Shown here piece after piece: positions 6,640-46,018 of a stretch of 64,000 nt of DNA. The stretch spans positions 1 through 64,000 of the forward strand of contig JAMWET010001328.1 of assembly GCA_024036415.1 (NCBI GenBank). Reading direction: 5' to 3'. The number at the start of each line of letters is the position of its first letter. The first letter of the stretch is position 1. Both the position numbers and the translations under genes were made by a program. This DNA comes from Prochilodus magdalenae. Lineage: Eukaryota > Chordata > Actinopteri > Characiformes > Prochilodontidae. The notes below the pieces were generated by a model. That model searched no databases. It was not told where the DNA came from and was given only the letters and a program-made list of their open reading frames with translations.

Positions 6640-7260
6640 TGAAGATGTTCATGTTGAAAATGAATAATATGAATAATAGAAATTGTAAATATACACTCAT
6701 AGTCAAAACAATAGATGCAGCCAGTGTCAGTACCTTGGTAACAAAATGATGTCCTGTGATAATCCATCCCATGCATCTTGAATATTCTCACACAGTTCCT
6801 GCAGATTTTGTGCTGGGGTGGAGGTGAAGTGCCACCAGGCCTTCTGAACATATGATAAACTGTTCATCTTGGTGCTGACCATGATGCCTCCACACACGGA
6901 TTCATTGGTCATCTTTACCACGATGAAAGCGGGACTGAAGATGACCTGCTGTTATTCTGAGTCACTCCATGACAGTCTGGGACGACACCACTGCAGTCTT
7001 TGGCGATGTTGATGTGGTATTAAGAGCAGTGGTCGTAACGTTCTGTGTACATGTAGTCCTGTGTCATGCAGCCATTAGCCAGTAGTACTGAACTGAACAG
7101 GATGACATCACTGCAGGGCATCACTGCTCGCTGAATGTCTGCAATCGTGGCTGTTGGGTCAGTCAGGTACACCGATTAGGCCTGTCCATGGTTGCATCAC
7201 ATGCACGGCTGAGCGTGAAACTTACACACCAAGTTTCATTCCTGTCAGCTGATTCCTTCT
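6640..7260 (-). mobile_element. Mariner-like transposon remnant
   Basis: In reverse complement this aligns by eye with the segments at 16.9, 23.0 and 25.6 kb. Shared landmarks in reading order are gaatgaaacttggtg, caccaaagactgc or gccaaagactgc, gtcatggagtgactc, then cccgc near a GATGACC, and finally aggaactgtgtgagaatatt. The last part corresponds to the 26.3-kb segment. It is full of stops and so is a non-coding fossil. The Tc1/mariner assignment is inferred from the kind of sequence and from the transposase-like order of conserved blocks. No TIR or TA duplication could be fixed. Confidence 0.55.
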
Positions 7261-7427
7261 GGGTCCAACTGGAGACCTCTCTGGTGGAAACATGTAAGTG
7301 AATGCCTGAAGACGATGCATCTGATGATTGCAATAGTGTTAAACCGCCCTCAATCAGAACTGCAGTAAGACTTTGTGAAGAATGTGCCTTCTAAATATGA
7401 TCTAACCCCTGTATCATTTTAATGTTA

Positions 7428-7435
7428 GGTTGAGC
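7428..7435. repeat. Target-site duplication GGTTGAGC (left copy)
   Basis: This 8-bp sequence lies immediately outside the left terminus and is repeated exactly at 15025-15032 just outside the right terminus. An 8-bp duplication fits Merlin (8-9 bp) or hAT insertion. Confidence 0.9.
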
Positions 7436-8320
7436 GGTAACACTTTACAATAAGGGTACATTAATTAACAGTACTTGAGGCAGTAATAAGCATTAGTAAA
7501 CTGTTAAGTAATGTCATAATTGATCATTAACTAATGTTAAATAAGGCTTTATTAAGTGATTTGCAATCATTAGTATACGGTCAAATAATGTCTCAGTAAA
7601 TCATTACATAATTATTAATAAATGGTTAAGTACTGTTTTAATTGCTCATTAACTAATGATAGACACAGAAATGAAGTAAATTTTAGATTTGATTAAGTAA
7701 TTTATAACCATTAATAAATGTTAGGTAAAGTCTTAACTAGTCATTAACTAATCTTTAATAAATGATTAAGTGTTGTCTTAACAACTTATTTACTGCTGAT
7801 ACAAAACGACTGAAGACTATTTTTGCTTTTATTATAAGCCTTCATTGTTAAATGCTTAAATAATGTCTTTAATATCATTAACTAATTAAGAGTAATGATA
7901 GTTAATATTATTTTAGATATTAAGAAGTTTATTAATGTGCTAAACTCAACAAAGCTCAACAGTTAACAAGCCCTTCCTGAGGTGGCTATGTTAGAGCAGG
8001 AAAGAGATGATACACCAGAATCAGTTTTGGGAACTACTGATTTAAAACAATATCTGTCAACAATATCTTACTTACCATCCTCCAAGTTATGAAGTCTTGA
8101 TAAAGGCTGAGCTCTGTGGACAGACTCCATTGACTTCATGTAGACTTCACGTATTGTAAAGTCGCATGACCATATCTTATAAGTAGTGATATGTATGAGG
8201 GTACAAGAGTGTGTTTAATTAATATCAATTAATATATTTAAATTATGTATTTGTGCTTAATAGGCATTACTTAAACATTTATAACCCTTAATTACATGGA
8301 TTTGTTACCCTTATTGTAAA
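7436..8320 (+). repeat. Left inverted arm, unique part
   Basis: This arm pairs with the reverse complement of 14136-15024 over its whole length with few differences. The arm is very AT-rich and contains many ATTAACTAAT-like and TTAATAAA-like words. It is not coding. Confidence 0.92.
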
Positions 8321-9335
8321 GTGGAAACATATTTACCTTTAGTAACACTTTATAAACACACAGGAGGACACAGTAAACGTTAATCAATGTCAGTTAACCA
8401 TTAGTTAATATTAATAATATATATAATTCATGTATTTGTGCTTAATAAGCATTACTTAAACATTTATAACCCTTAATTACATGTATTTGTTACCCTTATT
8501 GTAAAGTGGAAACATATTTACCTTTAGTAACACTTTATAAACACACAGGAGGACACAGTAAACGTTAATCAATGTCAGTTAACCATTAGTTAATATTAAT
8601 AATATATATAATTCATGTATTTGTGCTTAATAAGCATTACTTAAACATTTATAACCCTTAATTACATGTATTTGTTACCCTTATTGTAAAGTGGAAACAT
8701 ATTTACCTTTAGTAACACTTTATAAACACACAGGAGGACACAGTAAACGTTAATCAATGTCAGTTAATCATTAGTTAATATTAATAATATATATAATTCA
8801 TGTATTTGTGCTTAATAAGCATTACTTAAACATTTATAACCCTTAATTACATGCATTTGTTACCCTTATTGTAAAGTGGAAACATATTTACCTTTAGTTA
8901 TACTTTATAAACACACAGGAGGACACAGTAAACGTTAATCAATGTCAGTTAACCATTAGTTAATATTAATAATATATATAATTCATGTATTTGTGCTTAA
9001 TAAGCGTTACTTAAACATTTATAACCCTTAATTACATGGATTTGTTACCCTTATTGTAAAGTGGAAACATATTTACCTTTAGTAACACTTTATAAACACA
9101 CAGGAGGACACAGTAAATGTTAATCAATGTCAGTTAACCATTAGTTAATATTAATAATATATATAATTCATGTATTTGTGCTTAATAAGCATTACTTAAA
9201 CATATATAACCCTTAATTACATGCATTTGTTACCCTTATTGTAAAGTGGAAACATATATACCTTTAGTAACACTTTATAAATGCACAAGAGCACACAGTT
9301 AAACATTATTAAATGTCAGTTAAGTATTAAAGTGC
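8321..9335 (+). repeat. 185-bp subterminal tandem array (left arm)
   Basis: The marker gtggaaacat recurs at 8321, 8506, 8691, 8876, 9061 and 9246, which is exactly 185 bp each time. There are five standard units plus a truncated inner variant from 9246. Each unit contains gttacccttattgtaaagtg, the inverted form of the element's terminal motif, so the terminus-like sequence is repeated inside the arm. Confidence 0.95.
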
Positions 9336-9899
9336 TACACAATTCTCATTCTAAATTTAAAAACCCTGAAATATTACTTTATTAATGGATAGGATTGCTA
9401 ACAAGATCTTACTCCAGATTCACAATTATCCACTGCTCGATTCTCATGCTATACCTTGATACGATGTAAAAAAAAACACATTAAAAATCTGATAACATAA
9501 TATGCTAAGCAAGCATTTGAAACACACCTTTATTGTGAAGTTGACCACATACCATTTTATTTTAACAATTACTGAATAAGTATTACCTAACTACTATTAA
9601 TCTGATACATCATCAGCAAGCCATTAGGCATCTGTGAAACATTGTGCATGGTTCACGGCGAAGCAGCTAATCGAAGTAAACTAGCTGTTATTGTTGTAAT
9701 AAATTCTGAATTAGCTATAAAGAAACCTTAGAACCCTAGGCTAGATATCACTGACAATACAAGATTTAGAATATTTTTTTACATGTTCTGCTTTTTAACA
9801 TTTATAATAACAAATAACAATAACAAACAAAATTGGGTCCTATTATCAAAATGACATAGCTGAACATAATTGAACTGAGAATGATAGGTGTATCACTTT
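9336..9899. other. Internal spacer of the Merlin-like element
   Basis: AT-rich sequence between the left array and the transposase pseudogene. It would contain the 3' UTR of the - strand gene, but no convincing poly(A) signal was chosen. Confidence 0.4.
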
Positions 9900-11160
9900 T
9901 TACAACGGGTACATTTTCAGAATGTCCTTCATGAGTCTCCCAAAAGGCCCGTCATTGTGGTGGTTTGCTAACCAATAAGTCCACTCAATTACAGAGAGAT
10001 GCTTTTTGCCCAAGAATCCCAAAGACCCACTTTCTTCTCCGCCACGTGTTTGTAAACCGTACTCGTCCATACTGAAAAACAAAAAAAATCCCTTTTTCAG
10101 ACCTCATTCTTGTGCAGAATTCTTTTACAAATGCTATTTCTGTCAAAAAGTTAGACTACATGTAATTTCACTGAAATATATTGACCATAAAATGTATACA
10201 TATGAAGCCTCCTTTTTACCATCACTCACACACTGTTTAATGTTTAGTACAAACTATTCTTAATATTTTTCTTAAATAATTTATTAAGCAACTAATTATG
10301 CTGCTGCTCTTTAGACAGTGAAGCAAATTGTATGACACAATTAACAGTACCTGCAACCCAGTTTCCAAAAAAGCTGGGATGCTGTACAAAATGTACATAG
10401 AAACAGAATATAACAATTTAGTAGAGCATAGGCATAATTTTGTTGCAAAGCTACAGGTCCTTTTAATATATTAAAATACAAAAATATATTAAAAACATTG
10501 TTTATTTTAAAAGATTCCAGAAAAAGTTTTCATGTGCAAAAAATCAGCAACAAATTATTTGCAATTTGCAATAACATCAACAAATTAATATATGCAGTGA
10601 CTTCCATTTTAGACAGACAGTATTTGTTCCATGTTAAATCACACCACTGGAATGGTAGGACGTTCCCTACCTTTTGCTTGTGGTGTTGGATGAGTTGCTT
10701 TAACCCTATGGCCAAAATATTCAATTGGTTAGGCTAATTAATTTAATACCTGTAAATAAATGTTATCCAAAAGAACAAGCTGGCCTTGGACCTCTCAAAC
10801 AATGACCCAGACCTCACAGACTTTCGTGTTGGTCTTCCTCTTTGCCTGTTCCGTCTACAGGTCCTGTATGACGTTAAACAAAGAAAAACACAATTGTAGT
10901 CACTCATTTTCTTCAAATCTACATTGGTACATATACTAAACACGGTCTTATCACTTAAAGCATTAACTAGAATATGGAACACAGACCATTCAAAATGATC
11001 TGCTTTGCTGGCAGGTGCGAGTTTCATTTTATGACGACACTTCTCACATTTCACTTTTTTTTGTCGCCTTTTTTGGAGCCATTTCACTAATTTCACTAAG
11101 TCCTCTTTGCAGTTGTTTTTCCTTGGAAGAGGGTCAGCAACTTTCCTCAACTTTCTTCAT
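9900..11160 (-). pseudogene. Merlin/IS1595-like transposase, internally deleted
   Basis: Three exon-like pieces are visible. Exon A (about 11150 to 10987) encodes a zinc-ribbon half with CEKC, followed by a short basic/hydrophobic run to FEW. Its donor splits a Trp codon that is completed in exon B. Exon B (10863-10750) continues with CRR and SVRSGSLFERSKASLFFWI, the block that follows the zinc ribbon in ISXO2/IS1595-type transposases. Exon C begins at 10071 after a good acceptor: one frame reads WRRRKWVFGILG, the WVFG segment typical of this fold, then hits a stop. A second frame continues to a C-terminus ending MKDILKMYPL and the stop at 9900. The part that should hold the first catalytic Asp is absent between exons B and C. 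The part with the second and third catalytic residues is missing within exon C. The copy therefore cannot encode an active enzyme. Family knowledge: Merlin is the eukaryotic relative of IS1016/IS1595. The assignment is by motif order only. Confidence 0.75.
10350..10480. mobile_element. Non-autonomous DNA-repeat fragment inside the transposase
   Basis: The sequence from acccagtttccaaaaaagct onward (about 10357), with the following gctgtacaaaatgt and aacagaat, resembles one end of a very common teleost MITE-like family, recognised from memory. No matching opposite end is visible, so it is a fragment. It sits where transposase exons with the first catalytic Asp would be expected. Confidence 0.45.
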
Positions 11161-11699
11161 GACACCTGTGCACATTTTAAATAGTGTCATTAGTACTGGA
11201 ACTGTTGCTCTTAAAGTCAGTAGTGTAGAATAAACATAGGTGGCAGGGGGATAAACAGTAGGTTACCTTTCAAGTTGTACTGGGCTGCTGTGGGGCAGGG
11301 GCGTGTCAGACCTCCTGCCTGAAATTCCTCAGAAGGCCACTTTTAGAGTCAGTCCTCGCAATCACACTGTTCAATCACACTGAAGGCGAGATGCATACAA
11401 ACACAACATGGAATTATGTTTTATGCTATTGTCTCAGTCTATAGTGTACTCCTGATGTGTAACATTACATAACTAAATCTGATACACAACATTGCAGACT
11501 GAACAAACTGATCTAGATACTGAAGAGAACAGAATGCTGGAGTGTTTGGAACATGGCTTTTTATAATGTTTATAACATATCTCTATGAATGCATAACTAA
11601 ACACCAATTGAGCCAAAGCAGCATATGTAGCAAAGCAAGCCGACAGCAAAATAAAAACATACATCTCATAACGTCATTTTGTAAAATGCGTACATAAAT

Positions 11700-12005
11700 A
11701 TAATAACAAATTCACAATACTTACAGATTAGATGAAGTATTTAGATTAATCTCTGTGTTCCTGTGCTCTGCTCTTCAGTGATGGGCTGACGCCTCTCAAA
11801 CTCCCGCGCATTCGTTTTTCTTCTTACACGCTGCCCAGTGTAGTCTAAGTGAGGCTAGCGCCCACAGCGACACCATGCGGCGGGAGATACGTAAGCTCAA
11901 CTGTAGCCAAAATGAGCCAGCAACCTCGAAAATTGCCGCGTCAAACTAGGCTGATCAACAAGAAGAAAAAAGACGAACAGCACAAAAAAATCTACCACTG
12001 AAAAT
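11700..12005. promoter_or_regulatory. Divergent promoter-like centre of the element
   Basis: This is the least AT-rich part of the element core, lying between the two genes that point away from each other. A - strand splice donor (GTAAGT, in reverse complement of 11715-11725) and a + strand donor (ATG then GTAAGT at about 12003-12011) mark short first exons on both sides. A shared bidirectional promoter is inferred from this arrangement. No TATA box was chosen. Confidence 0.5.
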
Positions 12006-13361
12006 GGTAAGTTACTAGCTAAAGCTACTAGATAAATATTGCATGTTGACTTTATTTTCTAGAAAGCCAATTTACCAGCAACATTAGCTAGCTAGCTAAT
12101 GACTGGTGGCCCATCCAGCTAGCTAGCTAGCGTGCATCATTTACTAACTAACTTTATTAACTTTATCAACTTTATTGATATATAAACGTTTCTTTAATGT
12201 TATCAGTTGTTTTAACAACGACCAATATTTCTGCCTGGAATAATACAAGACTTTTCTATGTTTTATTCATAGAAACATATCTTACATACTTTTACGTTGA
12301 CATTACAGTAATGTGTATGCTTTATAAATAATTTAATACTGTTGTAATGGTTATTATTTGGTTTATCTTTTCAGGATATGTTTAAATTCAATTAACTGTT
12401 TGAGGCATATTTGGCTTATTTGACTGGTGAATATGTTGTGCTCTAATTGGAGATGACCAAACTGCAGTGGCTCCAACTGTGACTGTTGCTTTAGCCAAAG
12501 CCAAATCAGAAAGTAGCATGTACAAACTAATGGTTCAAAACCTGGAAGAGAAGGTAGATGCTTTGACAAAGGAACAAGACTTTCTTAGGACTCAACTTTC
12601 TGAGGGTGAGTGAATGCACAGATTTGTCTAGTTAACTCTATTTCTCTATGCACCATTTATAGTGGCGAAAGTGTAAAACAACTGATTAGCCTCCCTCTTC
12701 ACAATGAAGTTATAAAGAAATTTTATTACATGGTGCTTTTTGACTCAGCCAGTCACAATACAGGGCAGCAAGTCCTGATGTCATGATGGAAGTCATTTAC
12801 ATAAGCCAGTTAAAGTTACAGTGAGGTTGATACACTCTGTTTCCTAATTCTAATAGAAAAAGTCATCAGTCATAATTGTTTTGTGCCTATAAAATCACAC
12901 ACACAAGTAATGACCAGAACATTTTTGGCGTTTACAGGCCTACTATTAATTTATGTATATATTTATTTATTTTAGGTCTCCAGAAGAGTCCAGCAAAAAA
13001 CACGACAGAGGAAATACATCCAAAAGTGTTATCTCTATAGATGGCACTGAGGCGAAAATGAGGTGGTACAGCAATACAAAGCAATCCTCTCAACCTACAA
13101 GGAAAGGACCATGTCAGAAGCTTTCCAAAAATATGGAGTTGACAGAAATACAATTGTCCACACTGCAGCCATTGCAGAGCTGGCAATTGCAGCTCCTGAA
13201 AAGTATGCAGAGCTTCTTCAACATCAGGAAGCAGCAGTTGCACTAGCTGTCTGTAATTTTACAATTTGTATTGCATTGTTTGCAAGGTACAAATATGCCT
13301 GTTATGGTATATTTTTGTCATGTTCATTATTCTGCAAGAGCAGTAAAGTTAAAAAAATAAA
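11950..13361 (+). pseudogene. CCDC106-like coiled-coil gene carried by the transposon
   Basis: Exon 1 ends in a donor at about 12006. Exon 2 (acceptor near 12375, ending 12605 at GTGAGT) encodes an amphipathic heptad-rich segment containing KLMVQNLEEKVDALTKEQDF. Exon 3 starts at 12976 after a TTTTAG acceptor. It encodes a Ser/Lys-rich linker with KSVISIDGTEAKMR and, in another frame, EVVQQYKAILSTYKERT followed by GVDRNTIVHTAAIAELAIAA. The latter resembles the conserved C-terminal domain of CCDC106-like proteins, which I recall as numerous in teleost annotations. The two halves of exon 3 are in different frames (switch near 13060), so at least one frameshift has broken the copy. An AATAAA is present at 13356-13361. 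The function in transposition is unknown; a DNA-binding accessory role is only a guess from the helix-turn-helix-like C-terminal segment. Confidence 0.65.
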
Positions 13362-13580
13362 GTACTTGTTTATACCCTCCCATTAAGATGTTCCCAGGTT
13401 TGTATAGTTTATGGATTATAACAGTCTGTACTATACTCTTGCGAAGGTGTCACTACAGTGTAATTGCTTAAATAGTAATATTTAAAAATGTATGAGTATT
13501 GCATTAATTAAGGTTTAATTGTGAGTAAATGGTTCATCATGTCTTAAACACTAGGTAATTTTAATAGTTGATATGTTGTG
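13362..13580. other. Internal spacer before the right arm
   Basis: AT-rich sequence between the AATAAA of the CCDC106-like gene and the first 185-bp unit of the right arm. Nothing else was recognised. Confidence 0.4.
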
Positions 13581-14135
13581 AACTTTACAATAAGGGTACC
13601 AAATACATGTAATTTAGTGTTATTTGTGTTTAAGTAATGCTAATTAAGTACAAATACATGAATTATATATATTATTAATATTAATTAATACTTAACTGAC
13701 ATTTAAAAATGTTTAACTGTGTCCTCCTGTGTGTTTATAAAATGTTACTAAAGGTAAATATGTTTCCACTTTACAATAAGGGTAACAAATACATGTAATT
13801 AAGGGTTATAAATGTTTAAGTAATGCTTATTAAGCACAAATACATGAATTATATATATTATTAATATTAACTAATGGTTAACTGACATTGATTAACATTT
13901 ACTGTGTCCTCCTGTGTGTTTATAAAGTGTTACTAAAGGTAAATATGTTTCCACTTTACAATAAGGGTAACAAATCCATGTAATTAAGGGTTATAAATGT
14001 TTAAGTAACGCTTATTAAGCACAAATACATGAATTATATATATTATTAATATTAACTAATGGTTAACTGACATTGATTAACGTTTACTGTGTCCTCCTGT
14101 GTGTTTATAAAGTGTTACTAAAGGTAAATATGTTT
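13581..14135 (-). repeat. 185-bp subterminal tandem array (right arm)
   Basis: Inverse orientation of the left array. The marker (aactttac or ccactttac) occurs at 13581, 13766, 13951 and 14136, again exactly 185 bp apart. The innermost unit is the same variant as the innermost left unit (both carry acagttaaac and gtcagttaagtatta on the same reading). Only two standard units are present here against five on the left. Confidence 0.95.
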
Positions 14136-15024
14136 CCACTTTACAATAAGGGTAACAAATACATGTAATTAAGGGTTATAAATGTTTAAGTAATGCCTAT
14201 TAAGCACAAATACATAATTTAAATATATTAATTGATATTAATTAAACACACTCTTGTACCCTCATACATATCACTACTTATAAGATATGGTCATGCGACT
14301 TTACAATACGTGAAGTCTACATGAAGTCAATGGAGTCTGTCCACAGAGCTCAGCCTTTATCAAGACTTCATAACTTGGAGGATGGTAAGTAAGATATTGT
14401 TGACAGATATTGTTTTAAATCAGTAGTTCCCGAAACTGATTCTGGTGTATCATCTCTTTCCTGCTCTAACATAGCCACCTCAGGAAGGGCTTGTTAATTG
14501 TTGAGCTTTGTTGAGTTTAGCACATTAATAAACTTCTTAATATCTAAAATAATATTAACTATCATTACTCTTAATTAGTTAATGATATTAAAGACATTAT
14601 TTAAGCATTTAACAATGAAGGCTTATAATAAAAGCAAAAATAGTCTTCAGTCGTTTTGTATCAGCAGTAAATAAGTTGTTAAGACAACACTTAATCATTT
14701 ATTAAAGATTAGTTAATGACTAGTTAAGACTTTACCTAACATTTATTAATGGTTATAAATTACTTAATCAAATCTAAAATTTACTTCATTTCTGTGTCTA
14801 TCATTAGTTAATGAGCAATTAAAACAGTACTTAACCATTTATTAATAATTATGTAATGATTTACTGAGACATTATTTGACCATATACTAATGATTGCAAA
14901 TCACTTAATAAAGCCTTATTTAACATTAGTTAATGATCAATTATGACATTACTTAACAGTTTACTAATGCTTATTACTGCCTTAAGTACTGTTAATTAAT
15001 GTACCCTTATTGTAAAGTGTTACC
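14136..15024 (-). repeat. Right inverted arm, unique part
   Basis: Reverse complement of 7436-8320 with few substitutions. It ends ccttattgtaaagtgttacc. Confidence 0.92.
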
Positions 15025-15032
15025 GGTTGAGC
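15025..15032. repeat. Target-site duplication GGTTGAGC (right copy)
   Basis: Exact partner of 7428-7435. Confidence 0.9.
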
Positions 15033-15115
15033 AATCAAACAGGACCTTCTCTTTGAGTCTATGCATAAGTATTTTGAATGGAAGTCTAGAGGATTTGTAC
15101 CAGAGAGGATTCTTA

Positions 15116-15525
15116 CTGTTACGTAGAGACAGGACAGGGAAGCAGGATGCAAGTGTAAGTATTTAAAAAGCTGAACAACTCTGACTAAACAAAACCAAAG
15201 AAACTAGAAACATTGAACCAGGTTACAGAAACAGACCAACATGGAGACAAACAACCAACAGGGAGACAAAAGACCGGGAGGAAGACAAAACACCAAGCAA
15301 GAACACAGGGGACTACAAGGAACACCTGGGAAGGGGCGGAGCTGCAAACCAAGGGCAGGTGAGGGGATTGACAAGGGGACGGAGAAGGAGGAGCCAAAAA
15401 CCAGAACAAACAGAAGCACATGGAACAAGACAACAAAGAGCACATGGACATGACAAGACAGAAACAGGAAGCCAGAGAAGACAGGCAAACATAAGCAGGA
15501 CAGGGCAGGATGTGACACATACAGA
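15116..15525. repeat. Purine-biased dispersed repeat
   Basis: The segment runs from gttacgtagagacaggacag to acagggcaggatgtgacaca. It is rich in ACAAAC, GAGACAAA and GGGGCGGAGC words and resembles a repeat common in fish genomes, from memory. Overlapping open frames on both strands reflect the purine bias and are not genes. Confidence 0.4.
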
Positions 15526-16328
15526 CTGATTGCTTGGGTTAACCAGATAGACAATCTCAGGACCCTAGAAAGCCGGTCTTACACTGCCTGCCTGATTAGA
15601 GCAATAAATATACCGAAATATGCAGTGTAGGGACATGACTGGGAACCACTGTAACAACTATAGCCTCAATTTATCTATATAGCTTCCACCTGGGTGGTTG
15701 AATAGCTAGCAAATGCAATGAGGATGGCCACAAATTGTCTGTTTCTCTGGCGTATTTCCATGCAGCCTGAGACCCTCTCATTACAGTGAGTCTGGTCTGT
15801 TTCCCACTGGCACCAGCACGGCGCATCAGACAGCAAATATGTAATTATGAATCCTCTGCTGTGTTGCAATGCGATTAGCTCCAGGCTGGGAGAGGGAGTG
15901 CACCGAGAGAGCACTGGGGTGGCAAGCACTCCTCTCCAGCGTTATCAAACACATGGAGCAACCACAGAGGGCTCAAGCTCCTGGTATTCTGGCCCCAACA
16001 CTGAGCAATCAAATTTTTTAGCAGTGATGTGTTGACAAAACTGGACCAAGGTGAGGGCTCGGGTCAGTCAGTGTTGGAAATCGTCCCTCTTTGTTGGAGA
16101 GTAATGATCGTCCACTTTCAGCGAGTGGTGGAGCGGCATAAGCTGCTCGTCAATGTCTCTGAAATCATAACATGCTGGATGATTGCATTGTTGGAGGCAG
16201 TTGGTTGGAACCGGGGAGGCGTAAATGGGTTTTTACAGAGGGCAATACTAACAGTCATGAGGCCATTAAATGCGCATTCACAAATGTATTGAATATTAAT
16301 AATTGCATTATTTTAATATAGTAGAACC
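15526..16328. other. Intergenic, no feature recognised
   Basis: No exon or repeat signature recognised in these 800 bp. Confidence 0.4.
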
Positions 16329-17918: not shown

Positions 17919-18115
17919 TCATTTACATTTATGGTATTTAGCTGACGCTCTTATCCAGAGCGACTTACAAGGTTAATCATATTACAGGTGGGCCAATGTA
18001 GTGTTAGGAGTCTTGCCCAGAGACTCTTATTGGTGTAGCATAGCAAAGTCTCCCATGTGTGGTGGTGGCTAGTTAGCAGGTAAAGGTGTTATCCGCTGAG
18101 CTACACCAACCACCA
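17919..18115 (-). repeat. tRNA-derived SINE, copy 1
   Basis: On the + strand it begins with the tail tttagctgacgctcttatcc plus agagcgacttaca and ends with the tRNA-like head in reverse (ccgctgagctacaccaacca). Compared with 43.7 kb, the B-box part is partly lost. Confidence 0.75.
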
Positions 18116-29200: not shown

Positions 29201-29494
29201 AGTCAGGGTCCTCACTCGAACTACAAAGTGATCTCCAGGAATAGGAAGCTCTGGGTGTGACTGTGGCTGCTAAAGATGGCGCAATGTAAATAAATACACT
29301 GGGCGCAATTTCTTTTTCACACGGGTAATGCAGATACTGTAAACATGGTAAATTGAAAAAAGCCTTTTGTGTTTCCTCTTATTCTCCTTGCCTTAGATTA
29401 CCTTCTGTATGAATGTGCGAAGATCACCACTTTCAAAGGTGTCTTTAACAAACGCTAATTCATCATTTAGATCGCTCATCCTCCTTACCCGCAA

Positions 29495-29605
29495 TGGGGC
29501 GCTGAAGGCTGTAGAATCGCGCACCTCGGCGGATGGCGATGGCTTCGGGGGTGGGGGAGGCAGAATCGTGCGCTTCGGCGGATGGCGATGGCTTCGGGCG
29601 GGAGA
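29495..29605 (+). repeat. Tandem duplication of ~62 bp
   Basis: cggcggatggcgatggcttc occurs twice, at 29526 and 29576 within similar context (gaatcg + cgc/tgc + gc). The repeat is GC-rich in an otherwise AT-rich region. Confidence 0.7.
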
Positions 29606-29609
29606 ATAA

Positions 29610-29789
29610 TTAAAGTTTTGGAAAGTAAACACCAGGTGGCAGTGTTCCGCAATGTCATCAAACTTCCCAATGAATTTAAAGTGGCAGCATTATTTATATT
29701 AAAAATGTATCAGCACTTCCTTTCGCGGGCCGGATTGACAGTTTTACCGGGCCGTATCTGGCCCGCGGGCCGTATGTTGTGCACCCCTG
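29610..29789. mobile_element. hAT-like terminus
   Basis: The end gtatgttgtgcacccctg, preceded by gggccgtatctggcccgcgg, resembles the terminal part of a hAT element of the type with GGCCCGC near its end. The other terminus was not found. Confidence 0.45.
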
Positions 29790-29909
29790 GTGGAAGGAAA
29801 CAGCAGTACCTGGAGGATCTCACACAGACATGGGGAGAACATACTTCACAGCTCCACACAGAAAGGACCTTGGCCACTCAAATGGGAAATAGAAAAGGAT
29901 ACTTAAAAG

Positions 29910-30890
29910 TAGAGGTGCATGAATACCGATACTGGTATCGGGTATTTTCCCGATGTCGTGTCCATTTACTCGTACTCGTAATCGCAAACGAGGCTCCGAT
30001 ACCAACATCCGATAACTTGTGTCTAGTGGATGTCAGCTACGTTATGCTAATGAGCAGACAACTCAAAATGTCTGCGATCTGGAATTATTTCACAATCAGT
30101 GATGACAACCCAAGCAAAGCAGAATGCAAACTATGCTCTATGAAAATATCAAGAGGAGGTACTTCTGCATCTTCTGACCTGATAAAACATCTTAAAATGA
30201 AACACAAAACTCAGCACGAGGAGTTCACTGCTAACGTAACACGCCACTAACCAACACTGCAGCAAACACTAGCTAGGTGAGATGCACGCAAAGCAATTCC
30301 ATGGGTCCCACACAGGCCAAGCAATAGCAAGCACATTTGAGGAAATGCTCAAGACTTGGGCCATTCCTAAAGGTTCTGTCCATGTTGTGGTTCGTGACAT
30401 TACTAAGAACATGATAAAGGCAATGGATGATGCTGGGCTGCCTAGCTTTTCGTGCATTGCACACACACTTCAGCTGGCAGTAAACGAGGGTCTGCTTGCA
30501 CAGCGGAGTGTCGCTGACGTTGTAGCAGTCGGACGCAGAGTTGTTGGGCATTTCAGACATTGTACTTTGGCGTATTCCAACTTAGAAGACATTCAGTTGC
30601 AGCTCAAGCAGCCAATGAAACGTCTCCAACAAGACGCGAAAACACAGCGGAACAGCACGACAAGTGAGCTCCTCTAATGTGATTCCCGCGATCACCGTAT
30701 TACAGAGACCGCTGTCGAAAGAAACCGATGAGGAGCAGGGGATCAAAACAATGACACGCACTTTACTTACAGCTGTACAGAAGCGATTTACTGACGTGGA
30801 GCAAAACCCACTCTTCTCCACCGCAACGCCTCTCGATCCAAGGTACTTAATGTGCGTGCATCTCATGTTGTTAATTTACTAAGGGTGTAA
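29910..30890 (+). pseudogene. hAT transposase with BED zinc finger, deleted
   Basis: A 5' terminus tagaggtgcatgaataccga precedes the gene. From 30068 a BED-type finger is encoded: CKLC spaced before LIKHLKMKHKTQH, with WNYF before it. A stop follows at 30248. A second frame (about 30282-30677) has VRDITKNMIKAMDDAGLP and CIAHTLQLAVNEGLLAQRS, matching the central part of ZBED-like hAT transposases. A third frame (30664-30850) has NPLFSTATPLDPRY. Text between the finger and the central part is missing compared with a normal ~600-residue protein. The C-terminal dimerisation region is absent. This is an inactive fossil. Confidence 0.8.
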
Positions 30891-33030: not shown

Positions 33031-34114
33031 TCCTAATCCCTCACTGGAGGCATCAGTATGCAGGACAAAGGTAGGTCAAAGTCAGGGTATGCAAGGATGG
33101 GTGGGCTGGTTAACATATCCATAAGCTTTGCCACCACAGATTGGTGTTCAGTGGTCCAAGTGATTGGTGTTTTTAAAGGAAGCTGCCCAGAAGCTTTACT
33201 GTCGACCCTGCTGTTTTTGGACCTGACTCCTAAACTTTGGGATTTATCAGACTTTTGAAGGAGCCCAAAGAGAGGCCTGGCCAACCAAAAAAAAAATCCT
33301 GAATAAAGGAGCGATAATAGCTTAGCATCTCCTACTGTTTTGGGAGACTTCTCTTTCATTTGTAGGACTGCTTCTAAATCCTTAGGGTCAATTTGGACCC
33401 CATCGCCAGAAACCAAACGTCCAACATACCTGACTTGACGTTTAAATAATTCACACTTCTGTGGACGCAGTTTTATCCCATGCTCACGCATCCGGCCAAA
33501 TACATGTCGGAGATCCTCCACATGCTCATCGAATGTCTTGGAGAAACAAAGCACATTATCTAAATACGGGTAGCAGCACTCGTCTCGCAAACCTTCTAGT
33601 ACCCCCTCCATGCACCTCTGGAAAGCTGCTGGGGCATTCGTAAGTCCAAAAGGGACCCTCACCCAGTCATATAAACCCCAGGGGGTGCTAAACGCTGTGA
33701 ACTGCTGTGAGTTTTTCTCCACAAAGCCCTGGTAATATGCACTGCCTTGGTCCAGAATCAAAAACCAGGCATACCCCCACTAGGTTATCTAGCAGGTCCT
33801 GTATACGTGGTAAAGGGTGCCAGATCTGGAATCGTTTTACGGTTGAGTTCTCTGAAGTCAGTGTGTGTCCTTGTGTCCTTTTTTCTGACGCACACGACCG
33901 GAGATGAGTATGGTGAGACAGACTTCCTTATCCAACCACGATCTAACAGGTTTTGCACGTATTCTTTGACTTCCCTATACAAGGGCTTTGGAATGGCATT
34001 ATAACTTTTCTGAAGTGGTGTGTCATATTTTAGATTGATCTTTAGGTTCAGGCTCAGGATACATCCAATGTCACCATCATCCCGGGCAAAAATATCAGAC
34101 TCCTCGTATAACAT
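33031..34114 (-). pseudogene. Ty3/Gypsy reverse transcriptase, broken
   Basis: The fingers part (34114-33785) contains RGWIRKSVSPYSSPVV and DFRELNRKTIPD, then shifts frame. The palm part (33761-33033) has [18 protein letters not shown] and, at the catalytic pair, YLDNVLCFS: the second acidic residue reads Asn. Later comes [17 protein letters not shown]. Loss of the acidic pair and the frame break mean no activity. This is an old copy. Confidence 0.93.
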
Positions 34115-35080
34115 ATCTCTGACAATTTCTTACTCACCTGCCTGTTGATGGGAGAGGTCAACAAGTGGGTTCCATTTTTCCTCATATCTGACACTTGCCC
34201 TATTCTTGTCAGTAGCAACTTGGGCTGAGTTTGCTTGGGCGCTGGCTAGTTGAGTCACTGGACCTGAATCTTGCTTTGGCTGGAACATGGGTATAAGGTC
34301 AGTGATTTCCTCTAGTCTACCCAACACGGTTCTCTGAGCAAGGCAGATATCGTGCTGTGTGGAGTTTTGAATGGGGACTTTGACAATCATAGTGGAACCA
34401 ACAGGAACATCAGCATTAGCTGGAAATACTTCTAAGCCATCTGGACAGTTGATTTCCATTGCAGGTTCAAATGACATTGTCCCTCCCTTGGGCCAACCTC
34501 TCACTCTACATCTAATGTCACATATCCGACCAGCAGGAATAACAAGACCTCTTTTTCCCACTTTCACCAGGTAACCAGGTGAGGGTGTTTCTAACGGATT
34601 CAGTTTGGCAATAGATAAAATTGTCTCCACAGTGTTTCTTCTTAGATTTAGCACCTCACTGAGCAGTGCACTTAGATCGACTGTGCCAGTCCGATTGTCG
34701 TTGTCCCGAATAATCTCTTCAATGACATTAATTCCTAGGAGTGGACAGTTAACACAGCTCCAACTAACATAGGCACTTGAATTGCTAGGCAGCCATGTTT
34801 TTGCTCGCCAGTTCCAAGGACACATCTATCCACCCGTCAAAGGGGACTTCGGTTCCGTTAGCTGCAGCAACATGATTCTTCATGGAGCAATATGTCAAGG
34901 GGTTGAATCTCAATACCAGGGAGTTTGCTCTCCAGCCATTCTCTACCAATAATGCTGACCTGAGCTCCCGTGTCTAATAACATATTTGTTTTAACCCCAC
35001 TGATTGAACAAACAACCATACACCGACTTCCAATAAGCTGTGCTACGTAATTTCTTTTAGGGACTTTATCTTGCGTTGTG
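34115..35080 (-). pseudogene. Gypsy protease region and pol linker
   Basis: An LLDTGAQVSIIGREWLE segment (D-T-G-A at 34974-34963) marks a retropepsin active site. It is followed across a frame change by NCPLLGINVIEEIIRDN and a long linker to RT (34825-34130). Frames change within the region. Confidence 0.8.
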
Positions 35081-35345
35081 CCGCTTATTGTTGATTTTGT
35101 TTCACTGCAACTCGGATTGGAGTGGGATGACTGTTTTTTTGTAGGTCACTGGCTGTCCCTTTCCAGTGACCTCACCCCGTTTCCCGATCGCCTAAGACAC
35201 CCAACAGCTCTATGCCCAGCCTGACCACCAAAAAAACAATGTGCACATTTTTCTTTTCCCTGCTGAACACATTCATGGCATTTCCCCTTTGTGGCAGCCT
35301 TGGGTGGATGGAATCTAGGAAGGCCTTGCAGGCATTTCACTACCG
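35081..35345 (-). pseudogene. Gag nucleocapsid zinc-knuckle region
   Basis: Reads KGKCHECVQQGKEKCAHC followed by FFGGQAGHRAVGC. The last segment resembles a CCHC knuckle (C-x2-C-x4-H-x4-C) in which the second Cys reads Gly. Confidence 0.7.
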
Positions 35346-36400
35346 TTTGAGGTCACCACTTTCTCTAGGCTCTTGGTCAGTGCTGACACCTGGGCTGTCA
35401 GCTGCATAATGGCAATGCAGTTGGCTTGTAACTCACTATCAACCTGAGTTAGTTTAGTCTGACTATTCTGGTCAGTATTAACCTCCTGAGCTAAACTGGT
35501 CACTGTTTCCCTATGGGAACCAAGCGTTTCAGTCTTTCTGCCTCCTCATTTGCAGATTTAGTGATTTGCTCCAGGATAAAACCATCTGACACTTGTGGAT
35601 CTGTGAGGTGGGGCTTTATGTCATGTCTTATGTTATTGCTTTTTTCATTCAGACCCTGATACAGTGTATGGAGAAACACGCCCTGGACTAGTCATTTGTC
35701 ATATTAAACTCAGAGCTACACTGCTGTGATGCCAGCAGCACGCATTGTTTAAGACCCATTATTCTGTATACGAACTGCTGAGGGTTCTCCTTTTCAAGCT
35801 GTTTAGCATTGCTCAGCTCTTGAAAGAGCTCGGTACTACTTTTGTCTCGAATATGAGATTTCAGTAGGTGCTTAAGGTCAACATTGTCTGTCAAAAACTC
35901 TTTGAAAGTACAGGGTTTTGTGACTCTCAGGACAGACCTAATAATTTCTGACTCTGTGAATCCATCTCTCAAACCTTCATCTATTTGTTTACAGATGCTA
36001 CGGTAAGTGATTTCAGATCCTGAGTCTGATATCTGCCCTCCCTGAATTTTTACCTCTCTATGGGGCAGCAAAGCTGCTACTTTAGTGAGTCTTACCACCT
36101 GATATGACCCCACTGATGGAGTACTTCTCCTACCCACATATGCAGAATCTCTACCAGCTGTACCATGCATCAAAGTGTCTCTGTCCCTGTTGGCTGGTAT
36201 GCTGGTCTCCTGTGAGTTGCCGTGGGTGAGTCTGAAGATGGTTGAGCAGGAGCAGGAGTCCCAACTGGCTGTGGAGTCGTTCTCTCGCCTTGCTGTGTTG
36301 CTGGACTCTCACTTGCTGCTTGGGTTAAATCTTTACTAGCTGTGAATTTGTTCATCATATCACAGAGTAGAAGCAAGCATGACAGAGAGCCTCTTCTACT
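35346..36400 (-). pseudogene. Gypsy Gag capsid region
   Basis: The segment 36173-35688 encodes an alpha-helical, charged protein with GLRDGFTESEIIRSVLR and FLTDNVDLKHLLKSH, then QFVYRIMGLKQCVL, a capsid-like pattern. A Pro/Thr-rich stretch lies upstream (36376-36170). The parts are in different frames. Confidence 0.75.
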
Positions 36401-37996: not shown

Positions 37997-39508
37997 ACCT
38001 AATTCTCTTTACCTGTAGGCCAGTTCTCTTTACCAGTAGGCCAGTTCTTTTTACCTCTAGGCCTAATTCTCTTTACCTGTAGTCCTAATTCTCTTTACCA
38101 GTAGTCCTAATTCTCTTTACCAGTAGTCCTAATTCTCTTTACCAGTAGTCCTATTTCTCTTTACCAGTAGGCCTACTTCTCTTTACCGGTAGTCCTAATT
38201 CTCTTTAACAGTAGTCCTAATTCTCTTTACCAATAGGCCTTATTCTCTTTACCAGTAGTCCTATTTCTCTTTACCAGTAGGCCAGTTCTTTTTACCTCTA
38301 GGCCTAATTCTCTTTACCTGTAGTCCTAATTCTCTTTACCAGTAGGCCTAATTCTCTTTACCAGTACTCCTAATTCTCTTTACCAGTAGTCCTAATTCTC
38401 TTTACCAGTAGGCCTAATTCTCTTTACCAGTAGTCCTAATTCTCTTTACCAGTAGGCCTTATTCTCTTTACCTGTAGGCCTAATTCTCTTTACCAGTAGG
38501 CCTAATTCTCTTTACCAGTAGGCCTAATTCTCTTTACCAGTACTCCTAATTCTCTTTACCGGTAGGCCAGTTCTCTTTACCAGTAGGCCAGTTCTTTTTA
38601 CCTCTAGGCCTAATTCTCTTTACCTGTAGTCCTAATTCTCTTTACCAGTAGTCCTAATTCTCTTTACCAGTAGTCCTAATTCTCTTTACCAGTAGTCCTA
38701 TTTCTCTTTACCAGTAGGCCTACTTCTCTTTACCGGTAGTCCTAATTCTCTTTACCAGTAGTCCTAATTCTCTTTACCAGTAGGCCTTATTCTCTTTACC
38801 AGTACTCCTAATTCTCTTTACCAGTAGGCCTTATTCTCTTTACCAGTACTCCTAATTCTCTTTACCAGTAGTCCTAATTCTCTTTACCAGTAGTCCTAAT
38901 TCTCTTTACCGGTAGGCCAGTTCTCTTTACCAGTAGGCCTAATTCTCTTTACCAGTAGGCCTAATTCTCTTTACCTGTAGTCCTAATTCTCTTTACCAGT
39001 AGGCCTAATTCTTTTACCTGTAGTCCTAATTCTCTTTACCAGTAGTCCTATTTCTCTTTACCAGTAGGCCTACTTCTCTTTACCAGTAGGCCTAATTCTC
39101 TTTAACAGTAGTCCTAATTCTCTTTACCAGTAGGCCTTATTCTCTTTACCAATAGGCCTTATTCTCTTTACCAGTAGTCCTAATTCTCTTTACCAGTAGT
39201 CCTAATTCTCTTTACCAGTAGGCCTAATTCTCTTTACCGGTAGGCCAGTTCTCTTTACCAGTAGGCCTAATTCTCTTTACCAGTAGGCCTAATTCTCTTT
39301 ACCTGTAGTCCTAATTCTCTTTACCAGTAGGCCTAATTCTTTTACCTGTAGTCCTAATTCTCTTTACCAGTAGGCCAGTTCTCTTTACCAATAGGCCTTA
39401 TTCTCTTTACCAGTAGTCCTAATTCTCTTTCCCAGTAGGCCTAATTCTCTTTACTTGTAGTCCTAATTCTCTTTACCAGTAGTCCTAATTCTCTTTCCCA
39501 GTAGGTCT
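37997..39508 (+). repeat. 22-bp minisatellite with higher-order repeats
   Basis: Unit taattctctttaccagtagt + cc repeats about 68 times with interspersed variants (ggcc, agttct, acctctagg, acctgtag). A marker ccagttctttttacctctag occurs at 38041, 38282 and 38588, so blocks of 241 bp (11 units) and 547 bp (25 units) were duplicated. Another block beginning ggtaggccagttctcttt recurs at 38911 and 39239 (328 bp). Some units carry 1-2 bp deletions. Confidence 0.95.
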
Positions 39509-43360: not shown

Positions 43361-43581
43361 ATATTTCATTTATGGCATTTAGCTGATGCTCTTATCCAGA
43401 GCGACTTACAGGGTTATTCATATTACAGGTAGGCCAGTGCAGTATTAGGAGCCCTGCCAAGGACTCTTATTGGTGTAGCTCAGCATTTGTTACCTAGACT
43501 GGGATTCAAACCCCCATCTCCCACATGGGTTGGTAACTCTCTAGTGGGTAGTGGTGTTAACCGCTGAGCCACAACAACCAC
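43361..43581 (-). repeat. tRNA-derived SINE, copy 2
   Basis: The tail tttagctgatgctcttatcc then gagcgacttacag is at the left, and the tRNA-like head ends at ccgctgagccacaacaacca. It is inverted relative to copy 3. Confidence 0.82.
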
Positions 43582-44962: not shown

Positions 44963-45018
44963 ACATTTACATTTAAGGCATTTAGCAGACGCTCTTATCC
45001 AGAGCGACTTACAACCGT
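44963..45018. repeat. SINE tail fragment
   Basis: Only the tail (ggcatttagcagacgctctt, then atccagagcgacttaca) of the SINE family is present. The head is missing. Confidence 0.65.
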
Positions 45019-46018
45019 GCTTAGTGTTCTGTTGGATAATATTCCAGCTAGTAGGAAGTTTAGAGCCTAAAACTCACCACGAGCTCAGACACTGGCCAAA
45101 CAGGGGGTCCGTGCTGGTACCTAGAGAAAGGTCATTATAAGTGCAACACAATACACATTGACGAAGGACATTATAAGTGCAATACAAAATGGTTATTAAA
45201 TTGCCACACAATACACACAATTTACTTTTGATCTGCCTTGTACATACTTGTATAGGACTTGTACATGTTCTTTGGCGTCATCGCGTGGGAAGTACCTCTT
45301 ACATTTGGGTGCCAGACTTGTAGGAAACTGTGGTGGTGATCTTGGTCCTCTACGTGTTCTGAAACTCCACTTCTACTGCACCTCAGAAGAAGAAAAATTC
45401 GCACTAGGATGACCCTTATATGTCGCTAGTCTGTTGACTTGATGCTTTCGTCTACAGCTCACATGTTCAGCTCAACTTGAACCTAGTTTGTCTCATTTTT
45501 ACAGGTCTTGGGTGATGTGTGGTGTTATAGGGTGAGCTGCTCTTCATTGCATTTTATTATCACTGTGTTCTGATTGGACGAGCATGTGCTACACACTAAA
45601 TGAATGAAAATTTAAACTGTTATTGTATTATAATATTAAATTAACCCTTTTAAAATTGTGCTGCGCCTTAACTCAATCATAAAAGACACAGTCGTTGATG
45701 GGGAAATGGATTTAATTTAATTTATAATTTAATTTATTTCATTTCATAACTATATATCAAGTTAAATGTGAGTCACTCAGCAGCAGTAACAGTTAACAGC
45801 TCTGTATACAGTGACAACATGCCTACACATTTCATATCAATAATCTAATAATAAGAAAAAAGACTGAAAGCCTGAAAAAGAGCAAATGTCATTTAATAAA
45901 AAGAGGACGGAATGAGGAAAGAAAGAGTAGTATGGAAGAACAAGTAGTGTTAGTAAGATGTGGTTCCTTCCAGGTGCATGGAATGTGCCTCTCACAGGAA
46001 CTTGCTGGATCAGTTATG
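45019..46018. other. Intergenic, no gene recognised
   Basis: No gene or repeat recognised. Confidence 0.4.

Follow-up and report, generated by a model that had tools for sequence, protein, structure and literature searches.

What kind of transposon carries long, nearly identical inverted arms, the remains of a transposase and, on the opposite strand, a second gene, and what might that second gene be doing there? The question is raised by an element at positions 7436-15024 (7589 bp) of the window, a stretch of 64,000 nucleotides of DNA of the bocachico fish, Prochilodus magdalenae (contig JAMWET010001328.1, assembly GCA_024036415.1). In the reading favoured here, to which we give roughly three chances in four (0.74), the window element is a non-autonomous copy of a Merlin-superfamily transposon whose better-kept relatives encode a DDE transposase and, divergently from it, a CCDC106-like protein with predicted DNA-binding ability, the likely partner of the transposase at the long repeated ends.

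The element is flanked by an exact 8-bp target-site duplication (TSD), GGTTGAGC, read directly from the sequence at 7428-7435 and at 15025-15032. The left arm begins with the terminus GGTAACACTTTACAATAAGGGTAC and runs on the plus strand from 7436 to 8747, aligning with the right arm (13713-15024, minus strand) over a matched part of 1312 nt with 10 mismatches and a longest perfect run of 383 nt. Tandem arrays of a 185-bp unit, with 6.0 copies in the left arm (8215-9323, plus strand) and 3.6 copies in the right (13582-14245, plus strand), lengthen the arms to about 1.9 and 1.4 kb respectively. Each array unit carries a copy of the terminus 18-mer CACTTTACAATAAGGGTA oriented opposite to the terminus of its own arm. 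This 18-mer occurs 12 times in the window with at most 2 mismatches, two of these being the termini themselves, and has no occurrence outside the element, with shuffles expecting 0.00. The outer parts of the arms (about 7436-8328 and 14132-15024) have inverted copies of the terminal motif at both ends, a single arm resembling a mini-element of ~0.9 kb. The sequence-only reading from which the analysis started had placed the boundaries correctly to the base, had seen the exact 8-bp duplication and had given the arms as ~0.9-1.9 kb, all of which agrees with these results, and had called the element complete, which holds for its boundaries and fails for its transposase, the catalytic region of which is gone. 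No frame between stops in 6901-15600 exceeds 137 amino acids.

The transposase persists as four remnants on the minus strand, compared with P0014, a zebrafish PF12762 protein used as the reference (P-numbers denote proteins). These are an N-terminal exon with a CxxC motif (KCEKCRHKM, 10986-11156), a second exon (RRNRQRG...SVRSGSLFERSK..., 10746-10856), a piece of the last exon equivalent to P0014 residues 167-188 (10009-10074) and, adjoining it at a deletion, the C-terminal end (9903-10007), which shares 69% identity with residues 287-321 of P0014. The deletion removes the equivalent of residues 189-286, which, judged from Merlin motifs, should contain the second D of the catalytic triad and its E, and residues 100-166, presumed on the same grounds to hold the first D, gave no match in the window copy. 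No window frame matched PF12762 in the Pfam scan, only N- and C-terminal parts being left, and the window copy is, as read from these remnants, a transposase-dead, non-autonomous derivative.

The Merlin assignment comes from the comparison of two older copies with P0014, together with the termini and TSDs, rather than from the window copy alone. These older copies, L019 and L022 (L-numbers denote loci of the genome), have the same termini and retain last-exon stretches 62-69% identical to P0014, with stops or gaps; the DDE region is incomplete in both, L019 being without residues 214-247 and L022 without 258-275 in P0014 numbering, and the L019 pieces by themselves gave no PF12762 match in Pfam. 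Matches to PF12762 (DDE_Tnp_IS1595) were found in related lineages on contigs C3373, C2704 and C7714 (C-numbers denote contigs of the P. magdalenae genome). The termini start 5'-GG, as GGTAACAC in the window element, C2704 and C3373 and as GGTCCCAC in C7714, in keeping with Merlin elements, for which GG termini and TSDs of 8 or 9 bp are described (PMC8101967). The proposed Merlin/IS1595 membership is thus borne out at family level, and the proposed gene plan was likewise recovered, the Merlin-like frame lying on the minus strand with the second gene opposite it on the plus strand.

Less expected than the Merlin transposase is the identity of this second gene, which by its profile match is CCDC106-like (PF15794). 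A helix-turn-helix exon at 13051-13227 on the plus strand, within a frame open over 13051-13383, matches PF15794 with an E-value of 5.4e-20, and upstream of it an N-terminal coiled-coil exon (12470-12607, plus strand) matches with an E-value of 4.8e-4, below the family cut-off. The PF15794 score is 72.6 bits for the window exon, 104.6 for C3784 and 106.6 for C7714, the curated cut-off being 30.2; no sequence for the C-terminal end of this protein turned up in the window. CCDC106 itself is known from cancer work as a p53-interacting vertebrate protein (PMC6423756, PMC10713525). The CCDC106-like protein is predicted to have a helix-turn-helix domain and would thereby bind DNA. Searches of PDB sequences with it found no credible relative, and its full-length structure model gave weak structural matches only. 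The DNA-binding domain of the LEAFY plant transcription factors shares 9-11% sequence identity with it, and the LEAFY family is not among the weak Pfam matches listed (25 of 84 families).

The association of the two genes extends well beyond the window. A search of the P. magdalenae assembly (1.18 Gb, 7790 contigs) with the Merlin DDE exon gave 111 matches, merged to 96 loci, and two CCDC106 queries gave 55 and 64 matches, 69 loci combined. A Merlin DDE locus lies within 10 kb at 23 of the 69 CCDC106 loci where uniform placement expects 0.11, and chance adjacency of the two genes was rejected on this count. The nearest Merlin is divergent at all 23, of which 19 lie outside the window family, and with N-terminal Merlin matches added 30 of 69 CCDC106 loci are paired, the nearest again being divergent in 30 of 30. 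A recount of all pairs gave 24 within 10 kb, one of them in tandem (a second, farther Merlin match at C30), and a pair on C3630 at 11.4 kb is also in tandem. Within 10 kb, 46 of the 69 CCDC106 loci and 72 of the 96 DDE loci are unpaired.

Copies of one family are not independent events, and the paired transposases were therefore compared by identity. The 13 rows compared form seven groups, with identities of 81% or more inside a group and no more than 57% from one group to another; C5924 and C3899 have too few letters in common to be compared with each other. As far as sequence can establish it, the two genes are paired divergently in seven lineages. Co-divergence of the Merlin and CCDC106 protein distances, a weak test, gave r 0.25 (p 0.059) over 11 pairs and r 0.32 (p 0.019) once C5924 and C3899, both poor in letters, were removed.

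Among the unpaired CCDC106-like exons, open frames of 63-77 amino acids were seen on C575, C1251, C765, C7758, C1748, C5089 (at 33994), C1053, C5141 and C4629; this group is perhaps a non-autonomous family, or one whose pairing is too diverged to see. On the Merlin side, DDE exons near C3373 in sequence were found on C4452, C4281, C1649, C552, C7373 and C3052, among others; in these six, residues ~43-153 were matched, each has an internal TAG and none is paired with CCDC106.

Three further lineages of the same genome show the same plan, which supports the earlier idea that a two-gene lineage with long arms may have gone undescribed. In the C2704 element (C2704:1292-9618) the arms are 94.8% identical over 679 columns, and there are an 80-bp array and an exact duplication, ATTTTTTC. 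The arms of the C3373 element (C3373:470460-478941) align over 1304 columns at 96.7% identity, with a 143-bp array but no matching duplication. Both genes lie between the arms in these two, the CCDC106 exon having a stop in C2704 and being split in C3373. In the C7714 element (C7714:91956-103661) the arms are 849 bp long and 99.3% identical, the termini are GGTCCCACTTTATATTAAG and the duplication, GAGGCAAC, is exact; in the parts read, its ends and the two exons, the exons for DDE and CCDC106 are both open. Long arms and the two genes thus occur together in four lineages, the window family included, these being the four of the seven whose ends were examined (the remaining three are the C488, C3899 and C5924 groups).

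The pairing is not confined to P. magdalenae. Protein searches returned 114 Merlin proteins and 92 of CCDC106-like type; nearly all of the entries that name a species are from fish. In annotation tables the two genes have consecutive locus tags in Metynnis hypsauchen (MHYP_G00280360/70), Culter alburnus (ABG768_025712/3) and Mugilogobius chulae (WMY93_001885/4), and both domains stand in one gene model (P0070) of Triplophysa rosa. A CCDC106-like protein of Coilia grayii (P0122) bears the UniRef name 'Transposase', pointing the same way as the gene pairing.

Copies of the window family have spread in a damaged form. The arm search gave at least 42 matches at no fewer than 23 loci, a lower bound with 40 of 180 candidates scored, and 21 copies were compared, namely the window copy and 20 of the 22 other loci. 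TSDs were counted in 10 of the 21, the other 11 being excluded with an end missing, truncated or altered; nine of the ten have exact 8-bp TSDs, different between copies, the exception being L016. The deletion junction (at most 2 mismatches in 42 bases) is common to 10 of the 21 copies, seven of which have exact, differing target duplications, and the deleted form has therefore, as read from these sites, been inserted repeatedly. The window copy shares 99.42% identity with L009 over 7598 columns, and the 400-bp flanks of the two are without similarity. The natural inference is that the deleted copies were likely moved by transposase supplied in trans. One copy of the family, L020 (C4860:481854-491772), is interrupted by Ty3/gypsy-like retroelement frames recognised by eye. 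Another locus, L051 (C7347:152102-155055), is a shorter element of ~2.95 kb. Its inverted arms of ~540 bp are 77-82% alike, its termini nearly match and it keeps a remnant of the second Merlin exon; it probably arose by deletion in another lineage.

The two arms of a copy resemble each other more closely than they resemble the arms of other copies. Over 800 bp in eight of the ten copies with both ends (L016 and L020 were left out), the mean difference is 0.60% between the arms within a copy, against 1.67% and 1.78% for the same arm between copies. In all 14 substitution columns whose minority base occurs in exactly two arms, these are both arms of one copy, a result that permuted arm partners equalled 3 times in 20000; 187 columns private to one arm and 26 minor in at least three arms were excluded from this sharing test. 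Private changes common to both arms of a copy are thus present in the sequences themselves, and exchange between the arms, perhaps via the hairpin that they can form, would explain them, although short-read contig assembly could have added to the likeness. Exchange between copies had been considered from 21 columns of the 'different element, different side' type and was rejected, all 21 reflecting the ends of the fixed 800-bp cut in two deletion copies.

A mechanism may be proposed in which the CCDC106-like protein dimerises via its coiled coil, probably enters the nucleus by a basic stretch and binds, with a predicted C-terminal helix-turn-helix domain of possibly LEAFY-like fold, to the terminal motif and to its copies along the arms. 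From there it would recruit the Merlin transposase, which would cut at the GG termini and insert with an 8-bp stagger. Both proteins would be needed for movement, copies lacking the catalytic region such as that in the window would be moved in trans, and the two arms of each copy would be kept alike by exchange between them.

The proposed partnership has to be weighed against a simpler history, in which an ancestral Merlin took up the CCDC106-like gene from a host in a single capture and kept it as a passenger, with the transposase working alone. To our knowledge the Merlin elements described so far encode a transposase only, and this fits a passenger, as do the weak co-variation of protein distances and the 72 DDE loci without a CCDC106 match within 10 kb. 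We nonetheless regard this history as unlikely, for the same divergent order is kept in seven lineages no more than 57% identical to one another, the genes are adjacent in other fishes when a passenger is expected often to be lost, and a helix-turn-helix domain is predicted in the protein. There is much less to recommend the view that two unrelated mobile elements, one a Merlin and the other bearing CCDC106, became nested or adjacent by chance; it would account for the 46 CCDC106 loci that have no Merlin DDE locus within 10 kb, but the 23 paired loci against 0.11 expected, each with the nearest Merlin divergent, and the single arm pair that encloses both genes in C2704, C3373 and the window-family copies leave it with hardly any credibility.

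The arms themselves might be suspected as products of assembly, their length and close likeness arising from collapsed or duplicated inverted repeats, given that the genome was assembled by the hybrid DBG2OLC method and polished with short reads (PMC9893009). An artefact could indeed still inflate the 99% arm likeness. As an account of the arms as a whole it is very improbable, the family being present at 23 or more loci with TSDs that differ between copies and are exact in nine of ten, the arm lengths varying between copies with some one-sided gaps, and other lineages having long arms of their own. Finally, hAT and P elements likewise make 8-bp TSDs, and an element of one of these superfamilies could merely have picked up Merlin sequence. 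The sequence-only reading had named intact copies with a transposase of such a superfamily among the findings that would overturn its assignment; there was no hAT or P match among the Pfam-scanned frames, which were not every frame of every copy, and Merlin is the sole transposase-like coding recognised in the copies. With the GG termini also as in Merlin (PMC8101967), hAT or P membership was rejected and its probability is close to negligible.

Elsewhere in the window, two hAT-type transposase-like frames (29471-30674, plus strand) and frames resembling a retroelement polymerase with neighbouring parts (33036-36308, minus strand) were recognised by eye. A 22-bp satellite array of 69 copies with 89% matches occupies 37998-39505, and another 22-bp array, different in sequence, lies beside the C3373 element. 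Three 3' elements of UnaL2, a long interspersed nuclear element (RF00436), were found at 17928-17981, 43369-43422 and 44972-45025 (minus strand).

In the literature searched, which was not exhaustive, no paper was found that treats Merlin and CCDC106 together or that describes a fish Merlin with an accessory or second open reading frame; papers on CCDC106 and transposons were unrelated by title, and the sequence ACACTTTACAATAAGG had no occurrence. A bolder proposal, tentative and with the odds against it, is that CCDC106 originated as the DNA-binding partner in a two-protein Merlin system of vertebrates, such that the mammalian p53-regulating CCDC106 would be a tamed transposon partner whose DNA-binding domain has the LEAFY fold, and the long repeat-filled arms would be the landing array of that system. 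The two-gene system of the favoured reading would itself add an animal case beside PIF/Harbinger in which catalysis and DNA binding are split between two transposon genes, could explain the many CCDC106-like genes in fish genomes and would supply a functional lead for human CCDC106. The repeat-filled arms would be a new system in which to ask why unrelated transposons evolve foldback-like ends.

With the Merlin superfamily, which is related to IS1016/IS1595, the elements have in common the DDE_Tnp_IS1595 transposase (in relatives, with parts in older copies with the same termini), GG termini, the 8-bp TSD and internal tandem repeats. Terminal inverted repeats (TIRs) of 24-462 bp and internal tandem repeats are reported for Merlin (PMC8101967), a TIR range exceeded here by the arms of the window element (1312), C3373 (1304), C7714 (849) and C2704 (about 680-840), although TIR length has been described as an unreliable trait for classification (PMC3573991). 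They differ from Merlin in adding the second, divergent CCDC106-like gene, long copies reaching 7.6-11.7 kb.

In PIF/Harbinger elements movement requires a Myb-like ORF1 protein, which binds the TIRs (Harbinger3) and carries the transposase to the nucleus (PMC2836001), and we propose that the CCDC106-like protein does the same for these Merlins. The likeness, two element-encoded proteins of which one is a helix-turn-helix DNA-binding protein, would be one of working and not of membership, PIF/Harbinger having another transposase family, a 3-bp TSD and a Myb-like partner whereas the present elements have a PF12762-type lineage, an 8-bp TSD and a CCDC106-like partner. The arms recall those of Galileo (P superfamily) and of the Foldback-like elements of Drosophila, for which TIRs of up to ~1.2 kb, internal tandem repeats as putative secondary transposase sites and exchange of arm sequence have been described (PMC3573991). 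Long, repeat-filled TIRs are common to both systems, as exchange of arm sequence would be, and by analogy with the secondary sites of Galileo the arm arrays may serve as landing sites for the CCDC106-like protein. Galileo differs in its P-family transposase and 7-bp flanking duplications, whereas the present element has a copy of the terminus 18-mer in each array unit and a second gene.

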